DNA of 64,000 bases from a bacterium (GTDB taxonomy: Bacteria > Bacteroidota > Ignavibacteria > Kapaibacteriales > UBA7675), in contig JAUIKM010000002.1 of the NCBI GenBank assembly GCA_030430495.1, positions 124,001 to 188,000 of the forward strand. Reading direction: 5' to 3'. The notes below the pieces were generated by a model, which did not search any database, had not been told where the DNA came from, and saw nothing but the letters and a program-made list of their open reading frames with translations. Shown here in pieces: positions 14,010 to 45,300 of this stretch. Made by a program: the position numbers and the translations under genes. Position 1 is the first letter of the stretch, and the number at the start of each line of letters is the position of its first letter.

Positions 14010-14105
14010 TATGCCCTGTCCCAGGTGGAACACGTAGCCACTACGTATTGCATTTCAATGTTAAATGGTTGAATTTGGCGGCACAAAGAATATTAACCAA
14101 AGCAG

Positions 14106-20134: not shown

Positions 20135-21736
20135 ATGAGAACTTTACTTTCGGTATTACCGCGCAGGGCGGTGTGCGCTTTATTGGTGGTCGGTCTGACG
20201 CTGCTGCCTCGGCAGTCTGCGGCACAACTGTTGTTTGAGCAAGTCAGCACAGATGCCAATCAGGTTGAGGTGTTTACGACCAATTACGGCATCGTGGGGC
20301 TGGATGTGCAGAACACCGCGGCGGGCGCATTCTGGCCGCGCTCCAATGATTTCCCGGGGGCGTACATGTTCGGCGCCGGCGTGTGGTTCGGGGCCATTGC
20401 ACATGTGGATGACAAGCCGGAAAAACGCGTTTTTATGAGTTTTAACCCAAATACGAGCTTGTCCTGGGCGGCGCCGGGCGATGTCTCGGACGGTCCCGCG
20501 CTGCAGGACGACGCGGCGTCCATTTCCAAATACCGCATTTACCGTTCGACTGATTACAATCCGGCGGGGCGGCCGCTGGACGGAGAAGCGCCGGGCTGGC
20601 CGTTGTGGAATCCGGACCAGTTGCAAACGGGAGTGTTGACGGGCGAGCTGGGCCGCTACGTGAACGACCTTGAGGACCGCAGCGTGGCCGTGCAGCACTC
20701 CGAACCGGTGTACGTCTCGGACGAGGATCTGATCTGCCGCTTCAAAGACACGGATGTCAATCGGTACGAAGGCGGGGCGGCAAGCGCGCGGCCGATCGGT
20801 TTGCAGTTTGAACAGGCGCTCTATTCCTGGGCGGATCCGGAGAATGAAAATTACGTGTTGTTGCGCTACGACGTCACGAACGTCAGCGGGACTGATCTGC
20901 AGGACTGCGTGTTCGGCCTGATGAACGACTTTGATATCGGCGAGCCGCTCAATTCAAAACACCCGTCATTGAACGACCGGATGGTTTACCACGAGGAACT
21001 GGCGGGGCGTCGGATGGTGGTTATGTGGTCGGAAAATGGCAGCGACGTGAAGTTCCAGGGCTACGGGTACTTCGGCATGGCGATGATGCAGTCGCCGATG
21101 TTGGACGACGACAACTATGTGATTCAGGACGGCGACCCGACCGACTACGACGCGCAGATCGGTTTAACAACGCTGCGGTTTTCCGATCTGGGCAACAACC
21201 CGATGACGGCCGAGGATCGCTACGACTTTATGACTTCGGGTGATTTTGAGTCGGCGTTTGCGCCGGATGACTATCGCGTTTTGTTCGGCAGCGGAACGTT
21301 TAATCTGCGAGCGGGGGAGACGGCGCGTTTTGTCATTGGATTGTTTTTTGCTCCGAGCGTTTCGGGCGTTCCGGACGGATCGCCCGAAGACCTGGCAAAT
21401 CTGGTGGCGGAAGTCGACAAGGGCCACCGTGCCTGGAGCGGCCGTGCTATTTCAGGCGTTGAAGAATCAGCCGCACATGATGTTGTTCTGCAGTTAAGTC
21501 CCAATCCCGTACGCGATCGGTTAAACATTGTGTTTAAGAACTGGCCGCCCGGCAAGACTGTGAAAATTGATATTCTGGACCAGGCGGGGCGCACGCTGCT
21601 GAAGCAGCAGCGTCACGTCGCGGAGCAGGACGAGACAATCACCTTGCCGCTGGACGGGCTGGCGGCGGGATCGTATTTCTGTCGCCTGCGCGCGGGCGAA
21701 CGGCAAGAGACGCGTGGGTTTGTGCTGCTGCCCTGA
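20135..21736 (+). CDS. Secreted T9SS cargo protein of unknown function, paralogue 1
   Basis: 533 residues with signal peptide 1 to about 30 (QSAAQ). The body (about 30-440) is a conserved architecture seen in FCB-group secreted proteins with no assigned function: FTTNYGIVGLDV, FWPR, GAYMFGAGVWFGA, WAAPGDVSDGPA, SDEDLICRFKDTDVNRYEGG, VLLRYDVTNVSGTDL and FGLMNDFDIGE. From about 455 there is a T9SS sorting domain (SPNPVRDRLNIVF, IDILDQAGRTLL, AAGSYFCRLRAGE). GAGG lies seven bases before the start. The same ribosome-site context, TCAGAGGCTGC, precedes paralogue 2, showing that the duplication includes the upstream leader. Confidence 0.8.
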   Translation: MRTLLSVLPRRAVCALLVVGLTLLPRQSAAQLLFEQVSTDANQVEVFTTNYGIVGLDVQNTAAGAFWPRSNDFPGAYMFGAGVWFGAIAHVDDKPEKRVFMSFNPNTSLSWAAPGDVSDGPALQDDAASISKYRIYRSTDYNPAGRPLDGEAPGWPLWNPDQLQTGVLTGELGRYVNDLEDRSVAVQHSEPVYVSDEDLICRFKDTDVNRYEGGAASARPIGLQFEQALYSWADPENENYVLLRYDVTNVSGTDLQDCVFGLMNDFDIGEPLNSKHPSLNDRMVYHEELAGRRMVVMWSENGSDVKFQGYGYFGMAMMQSPMLDDDNYVIQDGDPTDYDAQIGLTTLRFSDLGNNPMTAEDRYDFMTSGDFESAFAPDDYRVLFGSGTFNLRAGETARFVIGLFFAPSVSGVPDGSPEDLANLVAEVDKGHRAWSGRAISGVEESAAHDVVLQLSPNPVRDRLNIVFKNWPPGKTVKIDILDQAGRTLLKQQRHVAEQDETITLPLDGLAAGSYFCRLRAGERQETRGFVLLP

Positions 21737-22207: not shown

Positions 22208-23812
22208 ATGAAATTCCTTACCCATGCTGCAACTACGTGTCTGGCTGTACTGTTAATAGCCGTCGCATCCGCGATGCTGCCGGTTAACAGTTCCGGCCAA
22301 CAATTGTTTGAGCAGCGCGCCACCGGCGCTAATGAGGTTGAACTGTTTACCACCAACTACGGCGTAACAGGATTAAACGTTTCCGGCACGGCTGCCGGTG
22401 GATTCTGGCCGCGTTCCAGCGCGCAACCCGGTGCATATATGTTTGGTGCGGGGCTGTGGTTCGGGACGATTTCGGATGAGGACGGCACGCCTGTAAAACG
22501 CATTTTCAAAACCTACAATCCCAATTCAGGCAACTCCTGGGCGGCGCCCGGCGACGTATCCGACGGGCCGGCGATGCAATCCGACGCGGCGTCTGTTTCC
22601 AAATACCGCATTTACAGTTCAGTCGACTACGGCGCGGATGGGCAGCCACTCAGCGGCGATGCGCCGGGCTGGCCGATGTGGAGTAACGGGCAGGGCGAAG
22701 TCGGATCAAAAACGGGGAACCTGGGAACCTATGTGAGCAATGTTAACGATCGCAACATGGAAGTGATGAGTGCCGGTCCGGCCTTTGTTTCCGACGAGGA
22801 TCTGATTTGCCGTTTTAAGGACAGCGACGTCAACCTGTACGAGGGCGGCGCGGCAAATGCAAATCCGATTGGCCTGCAGTTTGAACAGGCAATCTATTCC
22901 TGGGCCGACAGCGATCACGAAAATTTCGTGCTCCTGCGCTATGACGTGACCAACGTCAGCGGTGAAGATCTGCACGACTGTTTTATCGGGCATGCGGGCG
23001 ACTTTGACATAGGCAATCCTGCGGTCAGCAGCGTGCGTTCGGCCGGCAACGATCGTATCACGTACTTCGAGCAGCTGTCGGGGCGCCAGATGGTGGTTCT
23101 GTGGTCGGAGAATGACGCAGACGTCCAGGGGATGGATTATGGTTATTTCGGCGTGGCGATGATGCAATCGCCGACGCTCGACGACGATGGTTTTGTGATT
23201 CAGGGCGCCGACCCGACGGATTACCAGGCGCAGATTGGTTTAACTTCGGTAAGAAACTGGGTGATTCAAAACGATCCGACGGACGCCGAAGAATCCTACG
23301 ATTTTATGTCCGGAAATCTGTTTGACAGCCAATCTGACGCGGGCGATAAACGACTGATGTTTTCCAGCGGCGGGTTTAACCTTCGCGCCGGCGAAACGGC
23401 GCGTTTTGTGTTTGGCTTTTTCTTTGCACCGAGCGCCAGCGGCATACCTAACGGTCTGTTAACGGACGTTGAGCTGCTGGTTGACGAAGTCGACAAAGGT
23501 CATGAACTCTGGAGCGGCCGCGTGGTTTCGACCGTCGGCCATTCCACAACAGCCGACTTTGGTTTATCACTGAGTCCGAATCCCGCGCGCGATCAGTTGA
23601 ATATTGCGTTTAACAGCGCGACGCCCGGCGCGCCGGCGACGATTGACATTCTGGACCAGACGGGCCGCATTGTGCTGACGCAGCGAGTGCGTACGGCTGC
23701 GCAAAAGGAATCGGTCGCTTTTGTGCTGGACGACCTGGCGGCGGGCTCGTATTTCTGTCGTTTAAGTACGGGCGACGGACATCAGACGGCGGGCTTTGTG
23801 GTTGTGCGTTAG
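22208..23812 (+). CDS. Secreted T9SS cargo protein of unknown function, paralogue 2
   Basis: 534 residues, colinear with the 20135 protein over its entire length, including FTTNYGVTGLNV, WAAPGDVSDGPA, FVSDEDLICRFKDSDVN, VLLRYDVTNVSGEDL, a DFDIG element and the T9SS sorting domain (SPNPARDQLNI, IDILDQTGRIVL, AAGSYFCRLSTGD). Signal peptide 1 to about 34 (NSSGQ). Differences are spread evenly rather than concentrated in one segment, unlike the other duplicated groups here. It has its own terminator. Function is unknown; as a T9SS cargo protein it should be exported to the surface or medium. Confidence 0.8.
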   Translation: MKFLTHAATTCLAVLLIAVASAMLPVNSSGQQLFEQRATGANEVELFTTNYGVTGLNVSGTAAGGFWPRSSAQPGAYMFGAGLWFGTISDEDGTPVKRIFKTYNPNSGNSWAAPGDVSDGPAMQSDAASVSKYRIYSSVDYGADGQPLSGDAPGWPMWSNGQGEVGSKTGNLGTYVSNVNDRNMEVMSAGPAFVSDEDLICRFKDSDVNLYEGGAANANPIGLQFEQAIYSWADSDHENFVLLRYDVTNVSGEDLHDCFIGHAGDFDIGNPAVSSVRSAGNDRITYFEQLSGRQMVVLWSENDADVQGMDYGYFGVAMMQSPTLDDDGFVIQGADPTDYQAQIGLTSVRNWVIQNDPTDAEESYDFMSGNLFDSQSDAGDKRLMFSSGGFNLRAGETARFVFGFFFAPSASGIPNGLLTDVELLVDEVDKGHELWSGRVVSTVGHSTTADFGLSLSPNPARDQLNIAFNSATPGAPATIDILDQTGRIVLTQRVRTAAQKESVAFVLDDLAAGSYFCRLSTGDGHQTAGFVVVR

Positions 23813-24430: not shown

Positions 24431-24578
24431 TCGATTGTGAATCTCAGGAGTTGGAAACAAATCGTCTATCGTGTTACCAGGGCACACGGCACGACCTCCA
24501 GGTTCGAAAATTCCCATAGAAATCATGGCGCCGTTGCACAGGCCATGATTGTGATCATGAACGACAGCAGCCGGAGCG

Positions 24579-27500
24579 CTATCGCTGAATCCGAACCAGG
24601 CGTGTCTCAACCTGATCCGCGCCCGTGAACGTACAGAAGAACCACCCTGACGGTAGATCCACAATTTTCAGATCAAACGTCGAAGCGCCTTGCGCGAACG
24701 AGCCTTCGTGAATGTTGCGCACCCGGCGGCCCAGCACATCACTGAGCACCAGGCGCGCCGTCATGGCATACGGTAAATTCAATTCTATCGTCGCAGTCTT
24801 ATTGTCCGTCTGCACGATTCCGAACGCCAACGGCGCGCCCAACACAATCTGTCTGTGATCGGCGGCGCAAACCTCCGAGGCCGTGAACTCAAAGGCGGCG
24901 CGGCCCGCTGTTAAACACTCATCAAGCGTGAAATCGAAGATTTCCACCATGCTCTGGAGAGTATCGCCCAGCAGCGCCATAAACTCCAGCTCAAGCAGCG
25001 TTTCGCCGTCATATCCGGCCGGGCGCAGGCCGCGCAGATTGTGTTCGGCGAAACGGCGTGCACCGTCGACCACCGTGCGCGGCGCGGCCGGACTCAGCAG
25101 CTCCAGCATGGTCTGGTCGTAGCGCAGCGTGAGGCTGAAACTGCGCGCGTCGCCGGACGGCGCGGGCATGTTTTGTTTAACGGTCACGCGGAAGCTTGCG
25201 CCGGGATCGGCGGACATGGTCGCCGGTTCAAACTCAAGCTGAATGCCTTCCGCTTGTTCAACGAGCAGGGCGTCGCGGTGTTCACAGCCGCCGGCATCAA
25301 TCGCTGTGAGCGAAAGCATTCCTTCGGGCGTGGAAGTGTTTAACTCGATCGTCGGCGTTGCGGCTCCGTTTGACCATTGGTAGGATTTAAACTCATCGGC
25401 GACGCCGAGTTGCAGCGTCGCGTTGCAGAGTAAGACGTCGCCGCCGAGGTCGACGCTGTTTTCAACAACCGCGACAGTATTCGTTGAACTGCGCGCACAG
25501 CCGGAGGGCGGCACAACTTCGGCGCTTACTTCAATCGACTGCGTCGACTGCAACAGCGGCGCATTGAATCGAATATCAAGGCGCGGTTGCGGCGGATCGC
25601 CGGTCGGTGCAGCGCCCGCCAAGGCCAGCTTGTTTAACACAATGCCGGACGCATCCGCGCTGAAGTCGCTCCAGGCCGCGCCGTTCACGAAGACTTCGGT
25701 CGGCGCAGCCGCCAGCGGCGGCGTGCACCTGATGCGCAGCTCAAAGTTTTGCAGCGGCGCAAGGCTGCTGTTCGACAGGTCGAGCGCATACAACAGCCCG
25801 TTGTTGCGACAGGCGTTTATGTCCTGACGCAATCGCAGACCCGAACGCCGCGGCCGTAGCTCGGCGGCGGCCAGCACAAATTCCTCCGCACCGCGCCGCA
25901 CAATGTTGATGTAGTGCGGCAGGCCGTCGGCCAAGGCCGGATCGGCAACAACGCGCATGGTAAAAAAGCCGCAGCCGATGCTGTCGAATTGCAGGTCCGC
26001 CGGACGCGCCAGCAGCTCATCGTTGTTTAAGTCAAAGTCGCCGCTCAGGTACTGCACACCCGGCGGCAGCAGGGCTTTGAGTTCGAAGTTGAGCTCACTG
26101 TCCTCAAAGTCTTTGCAGACGCGAACCTGCACGTCGACCGGCGCACCGGCGCAGTCGTTCACCTGTTTAACAAAGGCTTTCACTTGTGCCGGAACGTAGG
26201 CGGCCAGCGGGATGAGTTCGAGATCGTCGAGGAGCACATCAATAAATGCACCGTCATTCCGCTCCGGCTCGCGAGATAGAAATAAGACCCATTGATCATC
26301 GCCCCCAATTAAAAATGGATCACTGACAACATTGGACCATTCAAATAATGGTGCATTCGAACCAAATTTCACTGCAGGGAAGTTCTCATCGGGTTCACGA
26401 AAGTCATTCTGTTCTCCGCAAAACGACACTGAATCAAAGTAAACGTGAATTTCGGGTTTGTCGAACGGCTGAGTCGAGTTGCCGAATCTGATAGGATAAA
26501 TTTTAGCTCTTACAATGTAGTTAATCCCTTGCATCCGATTACCGGCAAGATGTTGAAAGACTCCCTCTCTGTTCTCGATACAAAACAAATAGTAGAGATT
26601 CTTGGTGTCACTGTCCCAGGAATCTGGTCCAAACCGACTGATTGTAGGTGTTACATTGTCGTTTCTCTCAAAGGAGTCTGATTTATTAATACGTTCATAA
26701 ATATCGGGAGACCAAATCGGCATCCATCCTGAAGTTCTGGATACATCACCCGTGCATTCTGAACTTTCTAAGTCACCAAGAAATCCATTTGACAGTGACA
26801 ACTCAAAATCTCCATTACACAGCAAATTGACCGTCGGCCAGGTGCAGGGCGGTAAGGCCGGAAACTCAACTTCAAGAAAGACATAGGTGATGTTACCACT
26901 AAGTCCGCCGCGATGCGGCAGGTAGCGCAATACAATTGTACCGCGAAAACCCGGATCGGGGTCGATGACCAATTGCTCGCTGTTGTTTAAGTCCGTCCGC
27001 GACAGCAGCGCGCCGCTTGTGCCGAGCACTTCAAGACAGGCAATCTTGTCAGTGTTTACATCGTTGGCGGCCAGATCATCAAACGCCAGCACAATCGGCT
27101 CAGTCGAAACAAACGGTCCGGACGGACGGTCGTTAACACCCGCGGGCAATCCGCGGCAGACGGCATAGTCATCGCGAAAGCGCGTTGCATTGCCGGGCGT
27201 CCCATAGACGCCGCTGAGGGCATAGCCCAGGTCGCAGAGCGCGGCGACCTCGTCGGCATGCGGCAGACGTTTGATTTCACCGGGCCTGATTTCGTGATGC
27301 AGGACCCGTCCCATACCATCGGCGGCGCAGTTTTCATCAAAATGACTCAGGCTGCCGCCCGCGCGCCAGGGTTGCGGCGTGTAAACGGCCGCGTTGAACA
27401 GATTGACTCCGGCAAAAACAACCGGCGTGTTGGACTGTGAACAAGGCGTCTGCAACAGTGCGCGGTCGTAGGGCGCAGGATTCAGCTCGTAACAGCCGTT

Positions 27501-28226
27501 GTTCTGCGCCACCAGCGGCGTGAGGCCCGCGCTGGAATTTAACTGCAAAAAAGAGTCGTAGCGCGTGAACCAGTTTGTGCCGGCGAGTACCGAGTTGCCG
27601 TCCGCACCGATGAAAGAGGCCAGTCCAAGCGCATGCAGCATTTCGTGCAGCACGACCGAGTAGAGGTCGACATCGGTAAAACTGAGGGCGTCGGGATCGA
27701 GGTTAAAGGCATGCGCAAAGTTGATCACAATGCGCGCATGATGATCGGGTGTGCTGCTCCAGCCCGCGTATGGATCGCCGAGGGCATTGATCGCCTGCCA
27801 GAGTGCGCCGTCGAGCAGGCCGGTGTTGGACGCGCCGTCGACGCGGTAGACCGCCGAGGCAAAAGCCGCCGCATTGTCGGTCGGGTCGACGTAGGCTTCA
27901 ACACGAATACGCGCTGCGCCGGCATTCGCCGGACGATCAAACAACTGTGACAGGTCGGAGAGCACGGCGCAGACCACGGCGCAGCGCGCATCCCCAATCC
28001 CGCCGGGCGCGCTGAACAGGCCCGCTTCATCGACAAATTGCACTTCAAAGAAACCGGCGCGGCAGTCGGACGCGCCGAGCGTTTGATCCGGCGAATGTTT
28101 TGCGGCGGCCGGGACCGGGCGGCCGAGGCGATCAACCCAGGATTGCGCGCTGGATTCGGCGCGGAGCAGAGCCGTGAGGAGCAAAAACGCCAGGATTGCC
28201 GCGGCCGCGCGATATGTGTTTAACAT
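24579..28226 (-). CDS. Multidomain secreted metalloprotease-like T9SS protein, array copy C
   Basis: 1215 residues from the ATG at 28226 (a TTG at 28238 overlapping the previous stop is also possible). Signal peptide 1 to about 28 (AESSAQ). About 30-340 is a zincin domain with HEMLHALGLAS at 194-204; the third zinc ligand at the matrixin position is Ser, so it is probably the His of the later SLSHFDE, as in relatives with a distal ligand. About 470-665 is a galactose-binding/CBM-like core starting LLCNGDFE and ending LLDDLELIPLA. Then come a DUF11-like domain with CAGAPVDVQVRVCKDFEDSE, an Ig-like CHU_C module (SYQWSNGAATPTIEL), a cohesin-like domain (PGASFRVTVKQN, SLTLRYDQTMLELL) and the sorting domain. 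Its C-terminal sequence (NIHEGSFAQG...) differs from copies A and B. It is the last gene of the array. Expected to be a surface or released protease that binds glycans; activity untested. Confidence 0.82.
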   Translation of the reverse strand: MLNTYRAAAAILAFLLLTALLRAESSAQSWVDRLGRPVPAAAKHSPDQTLGASDCRAGFFEVQFVDEAGLFSAPGGIGDARCAVVCAVLSDLSQLFDRPANAGAARIRVEAYVDPTDNAAAFASAVYRVDGASNTGLLDGALWQAINALGDPYAGWSSTPDHHARIVINFAHAFNLDPDALSFTDVDLYSVVLHEMLHALGLASFIGADGNSVLAGTNWFTRYDSFLQLNSSAGLTPLVAQNNGCYELNPAPYDRALLQTPCSQSNTPVVFAGVNLFNAAVYTPQPWRAGGSLSHFDENCAADGMGRVLHHEIRPGEIKRLPHADEVAALCDLGYALSGVYGTPGNATRFRDDYAVCRGLPAGVNDRPSGPFVSTEPIVLAFDDLAANDVNTDKIACLEVLGTSGALLSRTDLNNSEQLVIDPDPGFRGTIVLRYLPHRGGLSGNITYVFLEVEFPALPPCTWPTVNLLCNGDFELSLSNGFLGDLESSECTGDVSRTSGWMPIWSPDIYERINKSDSFERNDNVTPTISRFGPDSWDSDTKNLYYLFCIENREGVFQHLAGNRMQGINYIVRAKIYPIRFGNSTQPFDKPEIHVYFDSVSFCGEQNDFREPDENFPAVKFGSNAPLFEWSNVVSDPFLIGGDDQWVLFLSREPERNDGAFIDVLLDDLELIPLAAYVPAQVKAFVKQVNDCAGAPVDVQVRVCKDFEDSELNFELKALLPPGVQYLSGDFDLNNDELLARPADLQFDSIGCGFFTMRVVADPALADGLPHYINIVRRGAEEFVLAAAELRPRRSGLRLRQDINACRNNGLLYALDLSNSSLAPLQNFELRIRCTPPLAAAPTEVFVNGAAWSDFSADASGIVLNKLALAGAAPTGDPPQPRLDIRFNAPLLQSTQSIEVSAEVVPPSGCARSSTNTVAVVENSVDLGGDVLLCNATLQLGVADEFKSYQWSNGAATPTIELNTSTPEGMLSLTAIDAGGCEHRDALLVEQAEGIQLEFEPATMSADPGASFRVTVKQNMPAPSGDARSFSLTLRYDQTMLELLSPAAPRTVVDGARRFAEHNLRGLRPAGYDGETLLELEFMALLGDTLQSMVEIFDFTLDECLTAGRAAFEFTASEVCAADHRQIVLGAPLAFGIVQTDNKTATIELNLPYAMTARLVLSDVLGRRVRNIHEGSFAQGASTFDLKIVDLPSGWFFCTFTGADQVETRLVRIQR

Positions 28227-28234
28227 CGGCAAGG

Positions 28235-31200
28235 TCAATCCACTCGCAGGGTTTCCGTCCGAACGCCTGACGCACTGTACAGACTGCAGAAATACAGGCC
28301 CGGCGACAGCATTGCTTCATTAACTGTAAATTCTTTCGCACCGGATTCAAGTTCACCGCTGAACACCGTCGCTACCCGGCGGCCCAGCACATCACTGAGC
28401 ACCAGGCGTGCCGTCATGGCATACGGTAAATTCAATTCTATCGTCGCAGTCTTATTGTCCGTCTGGACAATCCCGAACGCCAACGGCGCGCCGAGAACAA
28501 TCTGTCTGTGCTCGGCGGCGCAAACCTCCGAGGCCGTGAATTCGAGGGTTGTACGTCCAGCTGTTAAACAGTCGTCAAGCGTGAAGTCGAAGATTTCCAC
28601 TGCGTCTTGCAGCCTGTCGCCCAGCAGCGCCATAAACTCCAGCTCAAGCAGCGTTTCGCCGTCATACGCGGCGGGACGCAGGCCGCGCAGATTGTGTTCG
28701 GCATAACGACGTGCGCCGGCGACCACGGTGCGCGGCGCGGCCGGACTCAACAGCTCCAGCATGGTCTGGTCGTAGCGCAGCGTGAGGCTGAAACTGCGCG
28801 CGTCGCCCGTCGGCGCCGGCATGGTTTGTTTAACCGTCACGCGGAAGCTTGCGCCGGGATCGGCGGAAATGTTCGCCGGTTCAATGCTGAGCTGAATGCG
28901 TTCGGCTTGTTCGACGAGCACGGCGTCGCGGTGTTCACAGCCGCCGGCATCAATCGCTGTGAGCGAAAGCATTCCTTCGGGCGTGGAAGTGTTTAACTCG
29001 ATCGTCGGCGTTATCGCTCCGTTTGACCATTGGTAGGAACTGTACTCATCGGTCACGGCGAGTTGCAGCGGCGCGTCGCAGAGCAGCACATCGCCGCCGA
29101 GATCGACGCTGTTTTCAACGACTGTGACATTATTTGTTGTGCTGCGGGCACAGCCGGAGGGCGGCACAACTTCGGCGCTCACTTCCAGCGCTTGAGTAGA
29201 TTGTAAAATCGCTGCGTTAAAACGCACATCGAGGCGCGGGCGCGGCGGATCACCCGTCGGCGCAGCGCCCGCCAACGCCAGCTTGTTTAACACGATGCCG
29301 GACGCATCCGCGCTGAATTCACTCCAGACCGCGCCGTTCACCAATACTTCCGTCGGCGCAGCCGCCAGGGGCGGCGTGCAGGTCAGGCGCAACTCAAAAG
29401 ATGGCAGCGTTGCAAGACGTTTGTTTGACAGGTCGAGTGAATACCGAAGCCCGTTGTTGCGGCAGGCGTTTAACTCCTGACGCAATCGCAGACCCGAACG
29501 ACGCGGGCGCAGTTCGGCGGCGGCCAGGACAAATTCCTCCGCACCGCGCCGCACGATGTTGATGTAGTGCGGCAGTCCGTCGGCGAGCGCCGGATCAGCC
29601 GCGACGCGCATATTGAAGAAACCGCAGCCGATACTGTCGTATTGCAGCTCCGCCGGCCGCGCCAGCAGCTCATCGTTGTTTAAGTCAAAGTCGCCGCTCA
29701 GGTACTGCACGCCGGGCGGCAGCAGGGCTTTTAGCTCAAAGTCGATTTCGCTGTCCTCGAAATCTTTGCACACGCGGACCTGCACATCGACCGGCGCGCC
29801 GGCGCAGTCGTTCACCTGATTAACAAATGTTTTAATCTGTGCCGGCACGTAGGCGGCCAGAGGGATGAGTTCGAGGTCGTCGAGGAGCATGTTAACAAAG
29901 GCTTCGTCGTTTCGTACAGCGTCGCGCGGCAGGAAAAATATCCACTTGTCTTGTTCGGTTAAAACGAAGGGTTTGCTGACTGCTGTAGTCCAGGCAAACA
30001 AAGGCATGCCGGTACCAAGTTTGACATGCGGGGCGTCCCAGCGGCGATTGCGGTAATTGTCGTTTTCATCACAAAACGAGATTGAGTCAAAGTACACGCG
30101 GAGTTCAGGAATGTCGTAGGGAGCGTCGAAATTGCCGAATCTGATTGGATAACACTTCGCCCTGACAATGAATTGAGTGTTGAGCTGGGACTGTGTCGGT
30201 TCAATGGGTTGGAAAACGCCTTCAAAACCACTCACACCAAAAAGATAGTAATGGTTTTCCTTATAACTATCCCAGGAGTCGGGACCAAATCGATTTGAGA
30301 AAGAGTCGTCAAACACATTCTCGTCATCCCGGATAAATCTGTTCGTTTGATCGACTCTTTCATATAAATCAGGGGTTTTGATGGGAAACCATCCTTGAGT
30401 TCTTGTGAACTCGTTGAGACATTCAACAAGTCGCTCAACTCCCACAAACCCACTAGCCAATGAGTTCTCAAAACCCCCATTACACAGCAAGTTCGCCGTC
30501 GGCCAGGTACAGGGCGGCAAGGCCGGAAACTCAACTTCAAGAAAGACATAAGTGATGTTGCCGCTGAGTCCGCCGCCTTGCGGCAGATAACGCAGCACAA
30601 TCGTGCCGCGAAAACCCGGATCGGGGTCGATGACCAGTTGGTCTCCATTGTTTAAGTCCGTGCGTGACAGCAATGCGCCGCTGGTGCCGAGCACTTCAAG
30701 GCAGGCAATCTTGTCAATGTTACTATCGTTGGCGGCCAGATCATCAAACGCCAGCACAATCGGTTCTGTCGATAGATACGGCCCGGACGGTCGGTCGTTA
30801 ACGCCCGCGGGCAATCCATCGCAGGCGGCATAGTCGTCGCGAAAACGCGTTGCATTAACCGGCGTGCCGTAGACGCCGCTGAGGGCATAACCCAGGTCGC
30901 AGAGCGCGGCGACCTCGTCGGCATGCGGCAGGCGTTTGATTTCACCGGGCCTGATCTCATGATGCAGGACCCGTCCCATACCATCGGCGGCGCAGTTTTC
31001 ATCAAAATGACTCAGGCTGCCGCCCGCACGCCAGGGTTGCGGCGTGTACACGGCCGCGTTTAACAGATTGACTCCGGCAAAGACGACCGGAGCAGAAGTT
31101 TGTGAGCAGGGCGTCTGTAACAGTGCGCGGTCGTAGGGCGCAGGATTCAGCTCGTAACAGCCGTTGTTCGGCGCGACAAGCGGCGTCAGGCCCGCATTGA

Positions 31201-31891
31201 TGTTTAACTGCAAAAAAGAGTCATAGCGCGTGAACCAGTTTGTGCCTGCGAGGACCGAGTTGCCGTCCGCGCCGACAAAAGACGCCAAACCGAGTGCGTG
31301 CAGCATCTCGTGTAGCACAACCGAATAGAGGTCGACATCGCTAAAACTGACGGCGTCGGGATCGAGGTTAAACGTCTGTGCAAAGTTGATTACAATCCGC
31401 GCGTGATGGTCGGGTGTGTTGCTCCAGCCCGCGTATGGATCGCCGGGGGCATTGATCGCCTGCCAGAGTGCGCCGTCGAGCAGGCCGGTGTTGGACGCGC
31501 CGTCGACGCGGTAGACCGCCGAGGCGAATGCCGCCGCATTGTCGGTCGGGTCGGCATAGGCTTCAACGCGGATCAGCGCCGCGCCGGCATTCGCCGGACG
31601 ATCAAACAACTGTGACAGGTCGGAGAGCACGGCGCAGACGACGGCGCAGCGCGCATCCCCAATCCCACCGGGCGCGCTGAACAGGCCCGCGTCGTCGACA
31701 AATTGCACCTCAAAAAAACCGGCGCGGCAGTCGGCCGCGCCAAGCGTTTGATCCGGCGAATGTTTTGCGGCGGCCGGGACCGGGCGGCCGAGGCGATCAA
31801 CCCAGGATTGCGCGCTGGATTCGGCGCGGAGCAGAGCCGTGAGGAGCAAAAACGCCAGGATTGCCGCGGCCGCGCGATATGTGTTTAACAT
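28235..31891 (-). CDS. Multidomain secreted metalloprotease-like T9SS protein, array copy B (mosaic)
   Basis: 1218 residues, same domain order as copy C: zincin with HEMLHALGLASF, galactose-binding-like core, DUF11-like, CHU_C-like, cohesin-like and sorting domain. The signal peptide is identical to that of copy C, while the last 50 residues (after LSDVLGRRV) are identical to copy A, so this gene is a hybrid in its ends. Inside, some blocks match A (SGCARSTTNNVTVVENS) and some match C (LAFGIVQTDNKTATIEL); others are private (LATLPSFELRLTC). Its core (about 470-670) is nearer to A than to C, for example in P-I-E-P-x-Q-S-Q and SFCDEND. Eight bases separate its stop from the ATG of copy C. The same eight bases separate copy A from it, which points to tight translational coupling. 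Confidence 0.82.
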   Translation of the reverse strand: MLNTYRAAAAILAFLLLTALLRAESSAQSWVDRLGRPVPAAAKHSPDQTLGAADCRAGFFEVQFVDDAGLFSAPGGIGDARCAVVCAVLSDLSQLFDRPANAGAALIRVEAYADPTDNAAAFASAVYRVDGASNTGLLDGALWQAINAPGDPYAGWSNTPDHHARIVINFAQTFNLDPDAVSFSDVDLYSVVLHEMLHALGLASFVGADGNSVLAGTNWFTRYDSFLQLNINAGLTPLVAPNNGCYELNPAPYDRALLQTPCSQTSAPVVFAGVNLLNAAVYTPQPWRAGGSLSHFDENCAADGMGRVLHHEIRPGEIKRLPHADEVAALCDLGYALSGVYGTPVNATRFRDDYAACDGLPAGVNDRPSGPYLSTEPIVLAFDDLAANDSNIDKIACLEVLGTSGALLSRTDLNNGDQLVIDPDPGFRGTIVLRYLPQGGGLSGNITYVFLEVEFPALPPCTWPTANLLCNGGFENSLASGFVGVERLVECLNEFTRTQGWFPIKTPDLYERVDQTNRFIRDDENVFDDSFSNRFGPDSWDSYKENHYYLFGVSGFEGVFQPIEPTQSQLNTQFIVRAKCYPIRFGNFDAPYDIPELRVYFDSISFCDENDNYRNRRWDAPHVKLGTGMPLFAWTTAVSKPFVLTEQDKWIFFLPRDAVRNDEAFVNMLLDDLELIPLAAYVPAQIKTFVNQVNDCAGAPVDVQVRVCKDFEDSEIDFELKALLPPGVQYLSGDFDLNNDELLARPAELQYDSIGCGFFNMRVAADPALADGLPHYINIVRRGAEEFVLAAAELRPRRSGLRLRQELNACRNNGLRYSLDLSNKRLATLPSFELRLTCTPPLAAAPTEVLVNGAVWSEFSADASGIVLNKLALAGAAPTGDPPRPRLDVRFNAAILQSTQALEVSAEVVPPSGCARSTTNNVTVVENSVDLGGDVLLCDAPLQLAVTDEYSSYQWSNGAITPTIELNTSTPEGMLSLTAIDAGGCEHRDAVLVEQAERIQLSIEPANISADPGASFRVTVKQTMPAPTGDARSFSLTLRYDQTMLELLSPAAPRTVVAGARRYAEHNLRGLRPAAYDGETLLELEFMALLGDRLQDAVEIFDFTLDDCLTAGRTTLEFTASEVCAAEHRQIVLGAPLAFGIVQTDNKTATIELNLPYAMTARLVLSDVLGRRVATVFSGELESGAKEFTVNEAMLSPGLYFCSLYSASGVRTETLRVD

Positions 31892-31899
31892 CGGCAAGG

Positions 31900-34800
31900 T
31901 CAATCCACTCGCAGGGTTTCCGTCCGAACGCCTGACGCACTGTACAGACTGCAGAAATACAGGCCCGGCGACAGCATTGCTTCATTAACTGTAAATTCTT
32001 TCGCACCGGATTCAAGTTCACCGCTGAACACCGTCGCTACCCGGCGGCCCAGCACATCGCTCAGCACGATGTGTGCCCGCATGTGGGTGGGCGCGTTGAC
32101 TGAAACGCGCACTGTGCCGCCTTCCGCTTTAACAACTCCAAACGTCAAGGGCGCGCCGAGCACAATCTGTCTGTGATCGGCGGCGCAAACCTCCGAGGCC
32201 GTGAACTCAAGGGCGGCGCGTCCGGCAGTTAAACACTCATCAAGCGTGAAATCGAACACTTCTACCCTGCTTTGGGCCGTGTCCCCCAGCAGCGCCATGA
32301 ACTCCAGCTCAAGCAGCGTTTCGCCGTCATATCCGGCCGGGCGCAGGCCGCGCAGATTGTGTTCGGCGAAACGGCGTGCACCGTCGACCACCGTGCGCGG
32401 CGCGGCCGGACTCAGCAGCTCCAGCATGGTCTGGTCGTAGCGCAGCGTGAGGCTGAAACTGCGCGCGTCGCCGGACGGCGCAACCATGTTTTGTTTAACG
32501 GTCACGCGGAAGCTTGCGCCGGGATCGGCGGACACGTCCGCCGGATCGATTAACAATTGAATGCCTTCGGCTTGTTCGACGAGCACGGCATCGCGGTGTT
32601 CACAACCGCCGGCATCAATCGCTGTGAGCGAAAGCATTCCTTCGGGCGTGGAAGTGTTTAACTCGATCGTCGGCGTTGCGGCTCCGTTTGACCATTGGTA
32701 GGAATTGTACACATCAGCCACGCCGATCTGGAGCGGCGCATCGCAGAGCAGGACATCGCCGCCGAGATCGACGCTGTTTTCAACGACTGTGACATTATTT
32801 GTTGTGCTGCGGGCACAGCCGGAGGGCGGCACAACTTCGGCGCTCACTTCCAGCGCTTGAGTAGATTGTAAAATCGCTGCGTTAAAACGCACATCGAGGC
32901 GCGGGCGCGGCGGATCACCCGTCGGCGCAGCGCCCGCCAACGCCAGCTTGTTTAACACGATGCCGGACGCATCCGCGCTGAAGTCGCTCCAGGCCGCGCC
33001 GTTCACGAAAACTTCGGTCGGCGCAGCCGCCAGCGGCGGCGTGCACCTGATGCGCAGCTCAAAGTTTTGCAGCGGCGCAAGGCTGCTGTTCGACAGGTCG
33101 AGCGCATACAACAGCCCGTTGTTGCGGCAGGCGTTTAACTCCTGGCGCAATCGCAGGCCGGAACGACGCGGGCGCAATTCGGCGGCGGCCAGGACAAATT
33201 CCTCCGCACCGCGCCGCACGATGTTGATGTAGTGCGGCAGGCCGTCGGCGAGCGCCGGATCAGCCGCGACGCGCATGAAAAAAAAACCGCAGCCGAGACT
33301 GTCGTATTGCAGCTCCGCCGGACGCGCCAGCAGTTCGCCGTTGTTTAAGTCAAAGTCGCCGCTCAGGTACTGCACACCCGGCGGCAGCAGGGCTTTGAGT
33401 TCGAAGTCAAGCTCACTGTCCTCAAAGTCTTTACACACACGCACCTGAACGTCGACCGGCGCGCCGGCGCAGTCGTTGACTTGATTCACAAATGTTTTTA
33501 TCTGCGCCGGGACGTATGCGGCCAGCGGGATGAGTTCGAGGTCGTCGAGGAGCATGTTAATGAACGCGTCCGGATTGCGTACTGGATCATGCGGCAAAAA
33601 AAGCACCCATTTGTCATTTTCATCCAGCGTGAACGGTTCGCTCACGGCTGTCGACCATTCAAAAAGCGGTATTCCGGTGGCAAGCTTGATATAGGGGTCG
33701 TTGAAACGCCGGGTACGGTAGACATCGTTTTCATCGCAAAAAGAAATGGAGTCGAAATACACGCGTACTTCAGGTATGTCATAAGGTTGGTCGGAGTTGC
33801 CAAATCTGATCGGATAACACTTTGTCCTGACAATAAATTGTGTATTGAACTGCGACTGCGCCGGTTCAATGGGTTGAAAAACACCTTCAATACCACTGAT
33901 TCCGTAGAGATAAAAGCGATTATCAGGAAGCTTGTCCCAGGAATCCGGGCCAAATCTGTTCATGTGGGAATCGTCAGATACAAACTGATCGTGCCGAATG
34001 AACGTGTCACTATCTTGTATTCGTTCATAAATATCTGGCGAAAAGGTTGGAAACCAAGCCTGCATTCTCGTGAGTTCTTGATAACATGTCCGATCATCAA
34101 TATTCAAGTGACCACTCGTCAAAGAGTTCTCAAAATCCCCATTACACAGTAAATTAGCCGTCGGCCAGGTACAGGGCGGCAGGGCCGGAAATTCCACATC
34201 AATAAACACATAGGTGATATTGCCGCTTAACAGGCCGCGTTGCGGCAGGTAGCGCAGAACAATCGTGCCGCGAAACCCCGGATCGGGATCGACAGTCAAT
34301 TGTTCGCCGCTGTTTAAGTCCGTCCGCGACAGCAGCGCGCCGCTGGTTCCGATCACTTCGAGACAGGCAATCTTGTCGGTGTTAACATCGTTGGCGGCCA
34401 GATCATCAAACGCCAGCACAATCGGCTCAGTCGAAACAAACGGTCCGGACGGACGGTCGTTAACACCCGCGGGCAATCCATCGCAGGCGGCATAGTCGTC
34501 GCGAAAACGCGTTGCATTAACCGGCGCGCCGTAGACGCCGCTGATTGCATAACCAAGGTCGCAGAGCGCGGCGACTTCGCCCGCATGCGGCAGGCGTTTG
34601 ATTTCGCCTGGTGTGATTTCGTAATGCAAGACGCGTTCCAATCCATCGTCGGCGCAGTTTTCGTCGAAGTGGCTCAGACTGCCGCCCGCGCGCCAGGGTT
34701 GCGGCGTGTAAACGGCCGCGTTGAACAGATTGACTCCGGCAAAAACAACCGGCGTGTTGGACTGTGAACAGGGCGTCTGCAACAGTGCGCGGTCGTAGGG

Positions 34801-35544
34801 CGCAGGATTCAGCTCGTAACAGCCGTTGTTCGGCGCGACAAGCGGCGTCAGGCCCGCGTTGGAGTTTAACTGCAAAAAAGAGTCGTAGCGCGTAAACCAG
34901 GTGCTTCCGGCGAGGACCGAGTTGCCGTCCGCGCCGACAAAAGACGCCAGTCCAAGCGCATGCAGCATTTCGTGCAGCACGACCGAGTAGAGGTCGACAT
35001 CGGTAAAACTGACCGCGTCGGGATCGAGGTTAAAGGCATGCGCAAAGTTGATCACAATGCGCGCGTGATGGTCGGGTGTGTTGTTCCAGCCCGCATAAGT
35101 ATCGCCGCTTGAATTGATCGCCTGCCAGAGTGCGCCGTCGAGCAGGCCGGAGCTGGACGCGCCGTCGACGCGGTAGACCGCCGAGGCAAAAGCCGCCGCA
35201 TTGTCGGTCGGATCGACGTAGGCTTCAACACGAATACGCGCGGCGCCGGCATTCGCCGGACGATTAAATAGTTGCGACAGATCGGAGAGCACGGCGCAGA
35301 CCACCGCACAGCGCGCATCCCCAATCCCGCCGGGCGCGCTGAACAGGCCCGCTTCATCGACAAATTGCACTTCAAAAAAACCGGCGCGGCAGTCGGATGC
35401 GCCGAGCGTTTGATCCGGCGAATGTTTCGCGGCGGCCGGGATCGGGCGGCCGAGGCGATCGACCCAGGATTGCGCCTGTGAATCGACGCGGCCCAGGCAA
35501 ATCAGCAGTAGAACTGTCAGTATTTGTGAGAGTGTGTATTTCAT
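31900..35544 (-). CDS. Multidomain secreted metalloprotease-like T9SS protein, array copy A (promoter-proximal)
   Basis: 1214 residues from the ATG at 35544, where a signal peptide begins (MKYTLSQILTVLLLICLG); a longer frame to 35667 lacks one. This signal peptide is unlike those of B and C although the mature start QSWVDRLGRP is shared. The same domains follow: zincin HEMLHALGLASF, LLCNGDFE core, cohesin-like and sorting domain. The Met-turn region reads LERVLHYEITPGEI, with no Met at the usual place, so catalysis should be tested rather than assumed. Its 3' end, the 8-base spacer and the start of the next gene form a block identical to the one between B and C. As first gene it should carry the promoter, in the 177 bases before 35722. 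Confidence 0.82.
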   Translation of the reverse strand: MKYTLSQILTVLLLICLGRVDSQAQSWVDRLGRPIPAAAKHSPDQTLGASDCRAGFFEVQFVDEAGLFSAPGGIGDARCAVVCAVLSDLSQLFNRPANAGAARIRVEAYVDPTDNAAAFASAVYRVDGASSSGLLDGALWQAINSSGDTYAGWNNTPDHHARIVINFAHAFNLDPDAVSFTDVDLYSVVLHEMLHALGLASFVGADGNSVLAGSTWFTRYDSFLQLNSNAGLTPLVAPNNGCYELNPAPYDRALLQTPCSQSNTPVVFAGVNLFNAAVYTPQPWRAGGSLSHFDENCADDGLERVLHYEITPGEIKRLPHAGEVAALCDLGYAISGVYGAPVNATRFRDDYAACDGLPAGVNDRPSGPFVSTEPIVLAFDDLAANDVNTDKIACLEVIGTSGALLSRTDLNSGEQLTVDPDPGFRGTIVLRYLPQRGLLSGNITYVFIDVEFPALPPCTWPTANLLCNGDFENSLTSGHLNIDDRTCYQELTRMQAWFPTFSPDIYERIQDSDTFIRHDQFVSDDSHMNRFGPDSWDKLPDNRFYLYGISGIEGVFQPIEPAQSQFNTQFIVRTKCYPIRFGNSDQPYDIPEVRVYFDSISFCDENDVYRTRRFNDPYIKLATGIPLFEWSTAVSEPFTLDENDKWVLFLPHDPVRNPDAFINMLLDDLELIPLAAYVPAQIKTFVNQVNDCAGAPVDVQVRVCKDFEDSELDFELKALLPPGVQYLSGDFDLNNGELLARPAELQYDSLGCGFFFMRVAADPALADGLPHYINIVRRGAEEFVLAAAELRPRRSGLRLRQELNACRNNGLLYALDLSNSSLAPLQNFELRIRCTPPLAAAPTEVFVNGAAWSDFSADASGIVLNKLALAGAAPTGDPPRPRLDVRFNAAILQSTQALEVSAEVVPPSGCARSTTNNVTVVENSVDLGGDVLLCDAPLQIGVADVYNSYQWSNGAATPTIELNTSTPEGMLSLTAIDAGGCEHRDAVLVEQAEGIQLLIDPADVSADPGASFRVTVKQNMVAPSGDARSFSLTLRYDQTMLELLSPAAPRTVVDGARRFAEHNLRGLRPAGYDGETLLELEFMALLGDTAQSRVEVFDFTLDECLTAGRAALEFTASEVCAADHRQIVLGAPLTFGVVKAEGGTVRVSVNAPTHMRAHIVLSDVLGRRVATVFSGELESGAKEFTVNEAMLSPGLYFCSLYSASGVRTETLRVD

Positions 35545-35721: not shown

Positions 35722-37428
35722 CTATTCTTTCATCACCAGCACCGTGTTGGCTGTGTTACCCGTGCTGAGCACCTGCAAATAGTACTGCCCGTTCGGTTCG
35801 GAGTTGATGTCGACCGGGAAGTCAAACACACCCGTACCGAGCGAACCCAGATCGACGTTCAGAATCTCAAAACCGTAGAGATCGCTGATGTTGTAGGAGA
35901 CGTCCTTGGGCGCACTCAGATCAAGCCGCAGCGTGAACGCGCCGCCGGAGGGATTCGGCAGAATGAAAACGTCCGGCCGGTCGTTGTCGTCCTCGTCCTG
36001 CAGCGGGCAAGCGCCCAGTTCGATCGTCGCCTGCATCGTGCAGCCGCGCGCATCGATGACCGTGACGGTGATCGGCCCGCTGGGCCGCGGCACATTCGTG
36101 AACCAGTCGTAGTACTGCGCCGAATAATGCGACCACTCGTAGCTGTATGGTTCGACGCCGCCGCTAACGATCGCTTTGATCGTCGCCCAGCAGTCGACGC
36201 CGTATTGACCGCTCGTGTAGTCTTCGACCTCGAAGGTGATTTCGATGGGAGGGTCTTTGAGCGGATCTTCAATTTCTATGGAGAGCACCTTAGAACATCC
36301 ATTTGCGTCGGTGACGGTAACGGTATAGTCGCCAGGTTCCAGGTCAACCGGATTGAGTGGGTCGGCTGGGTTGAGTACGCCATCCAGCGGCTTAAACCAC
36401 TCCACCTCATATTCCGGCGTTCCGCCGGAAATCTCGATCTCGATGGCTCCGCCGCTTGTCGCACCGCAGGGGATGATGGCCGTCACCGCGGCCTCGACGG
36501 CGAGCAGGACGTCGGATTCCTTGATTGTGAACGGATAGTCGGTTTTGCACAGGGCGTTATCGTCGAGCGCGTCGACCCGGACCACATATGTGCCGGGAGC
36601 CAGGTTGTCATAACCCGTCACGCCTTCCGCGTATTCGGTCAAGGGCACCAGTGTCGGCTGTGAGTTGTCGTAGAGCCGATGTTTGTAGGGCAGTCGCATG
36701 GCGCCGGCCGTGCCGCCGATGGTATTGAAACTGATGCTGCCGTCGGCCGACCCGGTGCAGGTAACATCCTTTACGACAACGTCGATCAGCTCGGCATGGT
36801 CGAAGAGGTACAGTTCCTCATCGTAACAGCCGTTGTCGTCGATCACACGCAGGGTGTAGTAGCCGCGTTCGGGAAAATTCAGGCTGTCGTGGGTTCCCAC
36901 AAGATTGCCGTCGGCGTCGTACCAACGGTAGTCAAGCGATCCGACGCCTCCCTTGGATTTGGCGCAGGCATAGTCTGCGGTAGAGCACATACTTGAGACA
37001 CATCTCAGATAACCGTCAATGCAATACGGCCCCTGGTCCAATTCGATCGCGACGGTGTCGCAACAGCCGTAATAGTCACAGACTTCAATGAAATGACCGC
37101 CGCGGCAATAACCCGTCACTTCAATAATGCTGCTTTCGCCGTCGGTAAATTGTGGTTCTTTCTGGTCCAGATTGCCCCAGTCGGGAATAAACTTCCAACT
37201 GACGGGCCACTTGCCTGGAGCCACGTCAATCTGAATACGCGCGCCGGCCGACTTGTAGCAGTCATCGACGGTACTGGGAAAAATTTCCAGCACCGTCACC
37301 GTCGGCGGCGTACAGGTTTGAGACGTGACGGTGATTGTTGTCGGCGGGCCGAGCAGGGCCAGGACAAGGCAAAACATGGCGAGATGTCCGGGCGAAAAAA
37401 TCGCCGCGCGTTTGCTTTGAAAAGACAT
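35722..37428 (-). CDS. Secreted SprB/PKD-repeat protein with T9SS sorting domain
   Basis: 568 residues from the ATG at 37428, chosen because it precedes a signal segment (MFCLVLALLGPPTTITVTSQ). After a Cys-rich N-terminal part (about 35-170, with paired C-C and C-x-x-C spacing) come repeats of SprB type: VTCTGSADGSISFNTIGGTAG, LAPGTYVVRVDALDDNALCKTDYPF, then GGAIEIEISGGTPEYEVEWF with LEPGDYTVTVTDANGCSK, and a further SGGVEPYSYEW with VTVIDARGCT. SprB repeats occur in Bacteroidota surface adhesins, including gliding-motility proteins. The C-terminus from about 480 (ILPNPSGGAFTLRL, ISDLYGFEILNV, NGQYYLQVLSTG) is a T9SS sorting domain. It lies upstream of the triple array on the same strand, 177 bases away, so cotranscription is possible. 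Confidence 0.82.
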   Translation of the reverse strand: MSFQSKRAAIFSPGHLAMFCLVLALLGPPTTITVTSQTCTPPTVTVLEIFPSTVDDCYKSAGARIQIDVAPGKWPVSWKFIPDWGNLDQKEPQFTDGESSIIEVTGYCRGGHFIEVCDYYGCCDTVAIELDQGPYCIDGYLRCVSSMCSTADYACAKSKGGVGSLDYRWYDADGNLVGTHDSLNFPERGYYTLRVIDDNGCYDEELYLFDHAELIDVVVKDVTCTGSADGSISFNTIGGTAGAMRLPYKHRLYDNSQPTLVPLTEYAEGVTGYDNLAPGTYVVRVDALDDNALCKTDYPFTIKESDVLLAVEAAVTAIIPCGATSGGAIEIEISGGTPEYEVEWFKPLDGVLNPADPLNPVDLEPGDYTVTVTDANGCSKVLSIEIEDPLKDPPIEITFEVEDYTSGQYGVDCWATIKAIVSGGVEPYSYEWSHYSAQYYDWFTNVPRPSGPITVTVIDARGCTMQATIELGACPLQDEDDNDRPDVFILPNPSGGAFTLRLDLSAPKDVSYNISDLYGFEILNVDLGSLGTGVFDFPVDINSEPNGQYYLQVLSTGNTANTVLVMKE

Positions 37429-37974
37429 AAAATCATACCTTTGGTTTGATATTGTATGCACGGTGATCGGCCGTCCGTGGAAATCGTCGTCAAACATATT
37501 CCGCGGCGGTCGTTTCACCAATTATTGCGATATGTCAATTGCTGTAGCCACAGAATAGCAGCGACACCGTCTGTGATTTTGAATGTGGGACGTTAAATCA
37601 CTGGTCGGCGCGAAGTTGGGAGTTCCCTGGTGGACGCCTGCTTTGAATTGGTACAGGCGGCCGAAGGGCATGCTGGGGAGCAATAGCCGCCAAGATAAAT
37701 GAATCAGGAAAATTATCCAAGATAAGTTTTGGTTTTGGGTGAATTTTCCTACAGTCGACATTCTTTTCACCCAAGATCAGTCAGAGTATCAGTCGAGTTG
37801 AGGCACGGCACGGCAGGACCGAGTTCGTTGTCAGTACGATCGATTCCCTACCACGGTCGCCTGGTTCTGTGATATTGCCAGGAAACGCCGTTTGATCCCA
37901 ATTGTGTTAAACAAATGCAGGTCCTGGAAAATACCCCGTCTGCAGATATGGTACAGTACTTCACGTGAGCGAGG
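37429..37974. other. Intergenic stretch, no supported gene
   Basis: About 550 bases between two minus-strand genes. An 82-codon minus-strand frame here has a low-complexity composition and no family features, so I do not call it. The part near 37430-37520 should carry the promoter of the SprB-type gene. Confidence 0.4.
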
Positions 37975-42325: not shown

Positions 42326-45300
42326 TCACGGCACCTGAGAGATCCTGAACGAGTTGTTGCGGACGATGACGCGGTCGAGCGACGTCACCACGCCGTCGCG
42401 GTTCGCGTCCCAGGGCAGGTAGCCAACCTCAAAGCTGTGGCGGCGCACTTCCACACGGTCGCGCGCATTGATGAAGCCGTCCTGCGTGACGTCGCCGCCG
42501 AACGCACCGTAAACGTCGGGCGCCAATTCCAGCGTCGGATCCTGAAAATCGCGGAAAGCCGTGCCCGCCGCACGGAAGTCGATCCCGGCGCGGCAGTCGT
42601 CGCTGCGGACCAGAGCGGCGGCCGACATGATCGATAGATGGCTGGGCATGTGGACCACGACCAGAACGGAATCAAAGCCAAAGTCGGGAGGCAGCAATAT
42701 ACCGTCGGCGCCGTCCACTTCGCGAACCACGCCGTCGCGGTCGAGCAGGGCGGCGCGGCGCAGCAGCACCGTCGCGGCATCTTCCGGATCGCGCAATTCG
42801 ACCAGAATCCAGTCGCTGATCTGCGCCGCGGCAAAGCCGATCAGCTCCGTGCCGCCGTAGTTGTGCGGTGCGATGTCGAAAGGTTGCCCCTCCGGCAGCA
42901 GTCCGTTGTCGCGCAGGTCCGTGCGCATGGCGCCGCCGTCGTACGCGCCTTCGAGCAGCAGGTCGATCGAAAGGTGAATGGCGCCGACCGTCACCGTCAC
43001 CTCATCGGCGGCGCTGCATCCGTGGATCGTAGCGACGGTGACGCGATAGGTTCCGCTGCTCGCCGCAATGATGCTCTGTGTCGTCGCACCATTGCTCCAC
43101 AGATAGGTCGCAAAACCGCCGCCGGCGTCGAGCTCAACCGCCTGGCCGCCGCAGAACTCCAGCGGCCCGTCGGCCGAGATCTGCGGTGCGGGCAGTGAAT
43201 TAACCGTCACCGTGATAGAACTCGTCTGCCTGCATCCGTGGATCGTGCCGACCGTGACGCGGTAGACGCCGCTCTCCGCGACCGTAATTGCCGGCGATGT
43301 AGCGCCGTTGTTCCACAGAATAAACGTGTATTGCGAGCCTACGCTGAGCCTGACGTCGCCGCCGGCACAGAACTCGGTCGGTCCATCCGTGTGGATGTTC
43401 GGCCGCGGCAGTTCGTAAACCGTCACGGTCATGGCGCTGGACTGCGTGCAGCCCTGCACATTGGCGACGGTAACGCGGTAGACGCCGCTCTGCGCCGCGA
43501 CAATTGTCTGCGTCGTTTCACCGGTATTCCACAGATAAGTCGCAAAACCGTCGCCGGCGTCCAGCTCGACATCTTGCCCTTCACAAAATTCAATCGGTCC
43601 GCTGTTAACAATTGTCGCCACGGGCAGGTCGTGCCGCGTTAAACTGATGCTCGTGGATCCCGAACAGTTGTTGGCATTTGTCACCACGACGCTGTACGTG
43701 CCGCTCGCGTCAACGACAATGGTCTGACTGGTCGCGCCGTTGCTCCATTTGTAACTCGTGAATCCCCAGCCTGCGTCCAATGTGCGCGTTTCACCTGCGC
43801 AAAAGTCCGTTGAACCATCCGTAGCTATGCGGGGCTGCAGGAATGTGTTAAGTCGCACTTCAACAATTTCCGTCGTGGCCCGGCAGCCGAATTCGCTCGT
43901 GATTGCACAGTAAACCTGCGAGGTCGAGTTAAGCGTGATTGTCCGTCCGAGCGTGCCGTCGCTCCATTCGTAGGTCTCGTATCCGGCCGGTGCAAACAGC
44001 GTGACGTCTTCGCCGGGGCAAAGCGTCGTCGGCCCGTCCGATGTTACCGTCGTCCGCGGCAGGGCGTGAATTGTTAACTCAACCGAGGCGCTGGATTGGC
44101 AGAGCTGTGCATTGGCGACGGTGACGCTGAATGTTAACACCGACGAGGTGCCGGTTGCAATCGAATGCTGCACGCCAATCACCTGCGTCGTAGAGCCGTT
44201 GCTCCACAGGTAGGCGCTGAATCCGGGGCCGGCGTCGAGCAGCAGCGTCTCGTCTTCACAAATTTCGGTCACGCCGCCGCTGTTGATGTGCGCGGTCGGC
44301 AGGCTGTTGACAGTAATGCTGACAGACGTGCTTGCCGAGCATCCGTTGCCGTTGGTTACGGTTACTGCAAAAATGCCGCTCTGGTTAACCACTATGCTGG
44401 AAGTCGTCGCGCCGTTGGACCATTGAACGCTTGAAAAATGGTCGCCGACGTCGAGTGTGACGTCTTCACCCTGGCAGAATTCGGTCGGCCCGTCGGCTGT
44501 AATCTGCGGTTGCGGCAGGTTAAACACGGTGACGGCAATCGACGTGCTCGCCGAGCAGCCATTGCCGTTTGTCACTGTCACTTCAAAAATGCCGCTTTGG
44601 TTAACCGTAGTGCTGGAAGTCGTCGCGCCGTTGGACCAGAGAATGCTCGCAAACTGCTCGCCGACGTCGAGCGTGACGTCTTCACCCTGGCAGAAGACCG
44701 TTAGCCCGTCGGCTGTAATCGTCGGCTGCGGCAGGTTAAACACGGTGACGGCAATCGACGTGCTCGCCGAGCAGCCGTTGCCGTTTGTCACTGTCACCTC
44801 AAAAATGCCGCTTTGGTTAACTGTAATGCTGGAAGTCGTCGCGCCGTTGGACCAGAGAATGCTTGAAAAATGGTCGCCGGCGTCGAGCGTGACGTCTTCA
44901 CCCAGGCAGAATTCGATCGGTCCGTCGGCCGTAATCGTCGGCTGCGGCAGGTTAAACACGGTGACGGCAATCGACGTACTCGCCGAGCAGCCGTTGCCGT
45001 TTGTCACTGTCACCTCAAAAATACCGCTTTGGTTAACCGTAATGCTGGAAGTCGTCGCGCCGTTGGACCAGAGAATGCTCGCAAACTGCTCGCCGACGTC
45101 GAGCGTGACGTTTTCGCCCAGGCAGAATTCCGTCGGTCCATCGGCCGTGATATTCGGCACGGGGCTTGTCAGCACGGTGACGGAGATTGATGTGCCGGCG
45201 GAACATCCGTTTGCATTTGTGACGAGCACACTGAAAACACCGCCCTGATTGACCGTGATTGATGCGGCTGTCGCGCCGTTGCTCCACAGCACTTCGGCCC

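Follow-up and report, generated by a model that had tools for sequence, protein, structure and literature searches.

Three long genes, A, B and C in order of transcription, lie in tandem on the minus strand of the window, the 64-kb stretch of DNA that was analysed (Table 1). Their two internal junctions are identical base for base, while a domain in the middle of each gene has diverged, and this raises the question of how both conditions came to exist in the same genes and by what route the middle gene arose. The reading favoured here, with a probability of roughly 0.75, is that A, B and C belong to an old, lineage-specific family of T9SS-type, metalloprotease-like proteins that has become mosaic via gene conversion, with a diversified recognition domain that is sheltered from it.

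Array layout, junctions and further copies

As the first-pass annotation had observed, the two junctions are identical over 316 nucleotides (316 of 316). A mismatch flanks each edge. Counted from the start codon (ATG) of B or C, the tract extends from -167 to +149: it contains the end of the upstream gene with its TGA stop codon, then CCTTGCCG as an 8-nt spacer, and then the part of the next gene that encodes the signal peptide and about 25 residues more. The outer ends of the array are unique, the first ~27 residues being private to A and the last ~50 residues private to C. Since A and B are generally 85% identical, an identical run of 316 nt is far beyond chance: the 95th percentile of the longest identical run in codon-shuffled A/B controls is 63 nt, and the score of the A/B 3'-end tract in a Sawyer-type test was reached in 0 of 2000 permutations. 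Similarity at the offset of 3665 nt extends beyond the junction, at ~81-100% across most of the gene bodies, and falls to roughly 50-80% in one central domain only.

Table 1. Coordinates of the array, its domains and its shared tracts in the window
Feature	Position	Strand	Remarks
Gene A	31900..35544	-	first transcribed; own signal peptide, metalloprotease-like N-terminus, A-type variable domain, LRVD-type C-terminal domain
Gene B	28235..31891	-	middle; C-like start, mosaic body, chimeric C-terminal domain with A-like end
Gene C	24579..28226	-	last; RIQR-type C-terminal domain of its own, common to gene F (contig C50)
A/B junction, 316-nt identical tract	31743..32058	-	from the 3' end of A across the 8-nt spacer to codon 49 of B
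B/C junction, second copy of 316-nt identical tract	28078..28393	-	
HExxH motif (HEMLH) of B	31298..31312	-	plus invariant distal His (SHFDE)
A variable domain (predicted jelly roll), about aa 463-671	33532..34158	-	fold taken from B homologue
B variable domain (predicted jelly roll), aa 466-675	29867..30496	-	
C variable domain (predicted jelly roll), about aa 466-671	26214..26831	-	fold taken from B homologue
371-nt tract in B, aa 154-276	31064..31434 (edges approximate)	-	identical to E5 (C10)
340-nt tract in C	25751..26090 (edges approximate)	-	identical to gene D (C23)
230-nt tract in B	29088..29317	-	identical to A 32753-32982
182-nt tract in A	32300..32481	-	identical to C 24982-25163
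3' flank of C	24470..24578	-	87% identical to 3' flank of gene F (C50); match spans 24470-24620

A search of the 64-kb window against Rfam returned no match, and promoter and terminator scans gave counts at or below chance. A terminator-like hairpin followed by seven T (31719-31743, minus strand) lies inside gene B and abuts the edge of the 316-nt tract; the regional count of such hairpins equals chance. Immediately upstream of A, on the same strand, is a gene for a 599-aa protein with an SprB repeat (35722-37521). The window has other repeats as well. At 44394-48537, probably within a nearby open frame of 3304 residues, direct repeats recur every 216 nt (72 aa) and are exact over up to 101 nt; at 13102-15124, the members of repeat pairs are offset by 1119 and 1134 nt and are identical over up to 60 nt.

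The genome to which the window belongs (5.6 Mb in 80 contigs, with an estimated 4% missing) was searched for further copies. The three-gene array described by the first-pass annotation is present but not isolated: at least four further genes and two remnants, all at broken contig ends, lie elsewhere in this genome, and a second array has an identical junction pair of its own. Gene D (contig C23) is truncated at aa 52 by the contig end, genes E3 and E5 occupy contig C10 (4172 bp), and genes G3 and F are on contigs C47 and C50, respectively. E5 and G3, which represent complementary parts, probably belong to a single gene; if they are counted as such, the family has at least seven genes in total. 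The remnant downstream of D is a start of ~57 aa followed by a stop, and the gene downstream of G3 is broken after ~111 aa. In the latter remnant (L026 12045-12554) the family start gives way to unrelated coding sequence at an apparent recombination breakpoint, and the joined sequence has, in another frame, a resemblance by eye to a GyrI-like domain. C and F share their 3' ends and ~110 nt of downstream flank at 87% identity, so both represent one type of array end; the sequence that flanks A upstream has no second copy in the genome. Relatives from this order showed single copies only, one of them split across two frames (L037 1023-3310, G018:C91), either as a frameshifted gene or through sequencing error, and a search of genome contigs found one weak partial relative.

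The second array is broken over contig ends. Its E3/E5 junction on C10 and, on C47, the junction of G3 with the remnant are identical over 451 nt (-170 to +281). This pair is only 87% identical to the junction of the window, and the same segment in C23 is 93% identical to that of the window. Junction identity is array-specific, and constraint alone is therefore insufficient as an explanation. Selection on the start site, signal peptide and sorting domain might have been invoked because the tract includes the translation start, the signal peptide and the end of the sorting domain, but it is contradicted by the 87% identity of the second array's junction; with a different signal peptide in A and a different C-terminus in C, this explanation is barely credible.

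The ends of C10 and C50 have exactly 127 nt in common, and shared stretches of about this length are found at other contig ends too, as would be expected of an assembly with k = 127. The related copies break at such stretches, and the 316-nt repeat, being longer than the apparent k, was resolved only via further information, so that slight differences between junctions could have been collapsed in assembly. The case for gene conversion is drawn from one assembly, and an artefact by which near-identical junctions were collapsed into one consensus, or units were mis-joined or lost, has to be weighed for that assembly. It is unlikely to account for the pattern: collapse is unable to turn 85%-identical sequence into 316 nt of identity with sharp edges, A, B and C have distinct flanks inside a 259-kb contig, and the same pattern is found independently in the second array.

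Mosaic structure of the middle gene

Gene B was initially proposed to be a hybrid created by recent unequal crossing-over in an ancestral two-gene pair of A and C. For the two ends of B the two-parent description is correct: the start is C-like at 34 consecutive informative sites (aa 2-42), the end is A-like at 87 sites (aa 1173-1218), and the C-terminal domain is a chimera that flips from C-type to A-type, within 'VLSDVLGRRV', precisely at the edge of the tract. A crossover that made B a single-breakpoint hybrid would also have duplicated the junction and left both copies identical. It predicts, however, that B equals C up to one point and A past it, and the body of B is identical to neither: 302 sites match neither neighbour (349 are common to A only and 252 to C only), the longest tract in the body (371 nt) is shared with E5 and the closest counterpart of the central domain is found in E3, both genes lying on another contig, and silent sites in that domain are near saturation relative to both A and C. 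Outside the central domain, dS between B and C is 0.28-0.42. A recent crossover is thus unsupported, and distinctly unlikely to be the origin of the present sequence. The two-parent hybrid is too simple for the body of B, which is a mosaic of several paralogues; a single crossover between A and C did not produce it. An old crossover may perhaps have set up the gene order, but the present identity is not explained thereby. Between the two causes first suggested for that identity, a recent event or ongoing conversion, gene conversion is favoured; the divergence of the gene bodies speaks against the recent crossover.

Identical tracts that are significant by permutation connect B with E5 (371 nt), C with D (340 nt), A with B (230 nt), D with F (206 nt), B with D (197 nt), A with C (182 nt), and B with F (160 nt), several of them linking different contigs, and these tracts exceed what the overall divergence between paralogues allows. 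Trees of separate segments conflict with supports of 97-100: the partner of B is E5 in aa 49-276 (98) and F in aa 1001-1138 (99), and in the variable domain E5 groups with A (100). The 316-nt junction appears to be one among many conversion tracts, and the likeness of the regions flanking the central domain seems best explained by recombination.

According to the conversion reading, old duplications would have produced at least seven long genes for secreted metalloprotease-like proteins, standing in several arrays with neighbours 8 nt apart, a spacing that makes co-transcription probable. Gene conversion between these paralogues through homologous recombination, mainly in tracts of ~50-450 nt, would repeatedly replace sequence in the junctions, the protease part and the C-terminal half, and would leave the central domain of ~210 aa unhomogenised. 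Conversion would likewise have made both 316-nt junctions identical; the identity itself is observed, and the mechanism is what we infer from it.

Domains of the encoded proteins

No Pfam family matches proteins A, B and C at an E value of 0.01, no confident domain was found in them with Pfam and NCBIfam, and searches of PDB sequences gave nothing useful. HExxH and a further conserved histidine, as in zinc metalloproteases, are present: HEMLH is found in every complete N-terminus, and the distal histidine is invariant in an alignment that includes the relatives of the same order, suggesting that the N-terminal part may be an active protease. The NF038122 metalloprotease model scores 25-29 bits, over the HExxH region only, against a curated cutoff of 80. 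None of A, B and C has a C-terminal domain that reaches the Pfam cutoff for a T9SS tail, PF18962 being the best match for all five of the tails tested (14-24 bits, versus a cutoff of 27). The genome encodes SprA (TIGR04189, above cutoff) and at least 150 T9SS sorting domains, and the family is presumably secreted by T9SS. Two adjacent paralogues on the plus strand (20135-21736 and 22208-23812), encoding 533 and 534 aa, have T9SS sorting domains above the Pfam cutoff.

The central domain of ~210 aa begins with 'NLLCNGxFE' and ends with 'LLDDLEL'. Silent differences among A, B, C and D are 0.69-0.86 within it (aa 466-675), versus 0.11-0.38 in the coding flanks, and since the former values are near saturation, the copies are old. 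Where dN/dS can be estimated in this domain it is ~0.1, which lends no support to positive selection on the variable domain; many pairs are saturated at silent sites. A, E5 and F carry the same type of central domain, though F has a C-type end; the domain either escapes exchange or moves as an intact unit.

Modelling of the central domain with AlphaFold2 from 13 homologues predicts a jelly roll with moderate confidence (pTM 0.72, pLDDT 66); a model of B aa 24-690 from eight sequences (pLDDT 37) was set aside. The closest structural matches to the predicted domain are the MAM domain of meprin (Z 11.1) and the carbohydrate-binding module CBM4-2 of a Rhodothermus marinus xylanase (VIA Z 10.8), each with an rmsd of 3.3 over 146 aligned residues and tied within error; near behind are CBM22, CBM16, CBM61 and the Kgp K2 adhesin (Z 10.0). 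Foldseek ranks CBM4-2 first (E 5e-5). A Pfam search accepting matches up to E 10 returned no CBM family and no credible match for the central domain. The domain is predicted to be a jelly roll of the carbohydrate-binding type, and in a recognition role it would probably give every protein its own binding target.

Comparison with known families and significance

In the literature searched, no T9SS metalloprotease family subject to gene conversion was found. The proteases known as gingipains have a cysteine-protease fold, unlike the protease-like part described here with its HExxH motif. Recombining families of paralogues are known, among them msp2 and vlsE (PMC4534519) and the gingipain and haemagglutinin genes (PMC5266723). 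The T9SS surface proteins encoded by rgpA, kgp and hagA of Porphyromonas gingivalis are large and have protease domains and jelly-roll adhesin domains; repeats that are identical inside one gene or from gene to gene break assemblies, and the domain variants form mosaics (PMC5266723). The present family is similar in joining a protease-like part to a jelly roll, in its assembly-breaking repeats and in its mosaics, and its jelly roll has the Kgp K2 adhesin as one of the structural matches. Unlike rgpA, kgp and hagA, the genes of the present family stand in tandem, 8 nt apart, and each protein has one jelly roll, which is the unhomogenised part.

In msp2 and vlsE, segmental gene conversion with short tracts of variable length forms families of mosaic antigens (PMC4534519). 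Short tracts of variable length between paralogues, and a conserved frame around a variable domain, are seen here also. In contrast to msp2 and vlsE, the array of the window showed no single expression site supplied by silent cassettes: its copies are three full tandem open reading frames, and elsewhere in the genome there are two short remnants and other copies that are cut by contig ends. The low dN/dS of the variable domain is a further difference.

The combination of an HExxH protease domain with a MAM-like jelly roll is reminiscent of meprin (astacin plus MAM), the best VIA match being the MAM region of pro-meprin alpha, but no relation to meprin was evident from sequence, the two domains are separated here by an Ig-like stretch, and the tail resembles a T9SS sorting domain. 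The likeness to CBM4, which concerns the predicted fold of the model, is accompanied by no credible Pfam match, and here the module would be joined to a protease-like protein. In the concerted evolution of prokaryotes, recombination makes paralogues of the same genome more alike than they are to those of relatives (PMC6053082). Recombination appears to keep paralogues of the same genome alike in the present family too, with the difference that homogenisation is partial within each gene, one domain being spared. The present family is set apart from these recombining families by the type of protease, the tandem layout, and a diverse jelly roll amid a homogenised remainder.

A further possibility, which we consider rather unlikely, is that the arrays are a device for diversification, in which the conserved flanks would serve as recombination handles, kept alike by conversion, that reassort intact jelly-roll domains among co-expressed protease-like proteins; if so, they would generate a repertoire and need no silent cassettes for it. 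On the conversion reading, a single gene holds both a homogenised part and a part whose divergence is preserved, and a domain border clearly separates the two. The family lacks a confident Pfam match and couples a metalloprotease-like domain to a jelly roll resembling those of CBMs. In draft genomes such families are cut and their members under-counted; here the remaining copies could be seen only at the ends of contigs. The family may thus serve as a natural test of how gene conversion shapes the repertoires of secreted proteins beyond the well-studied pathogens.
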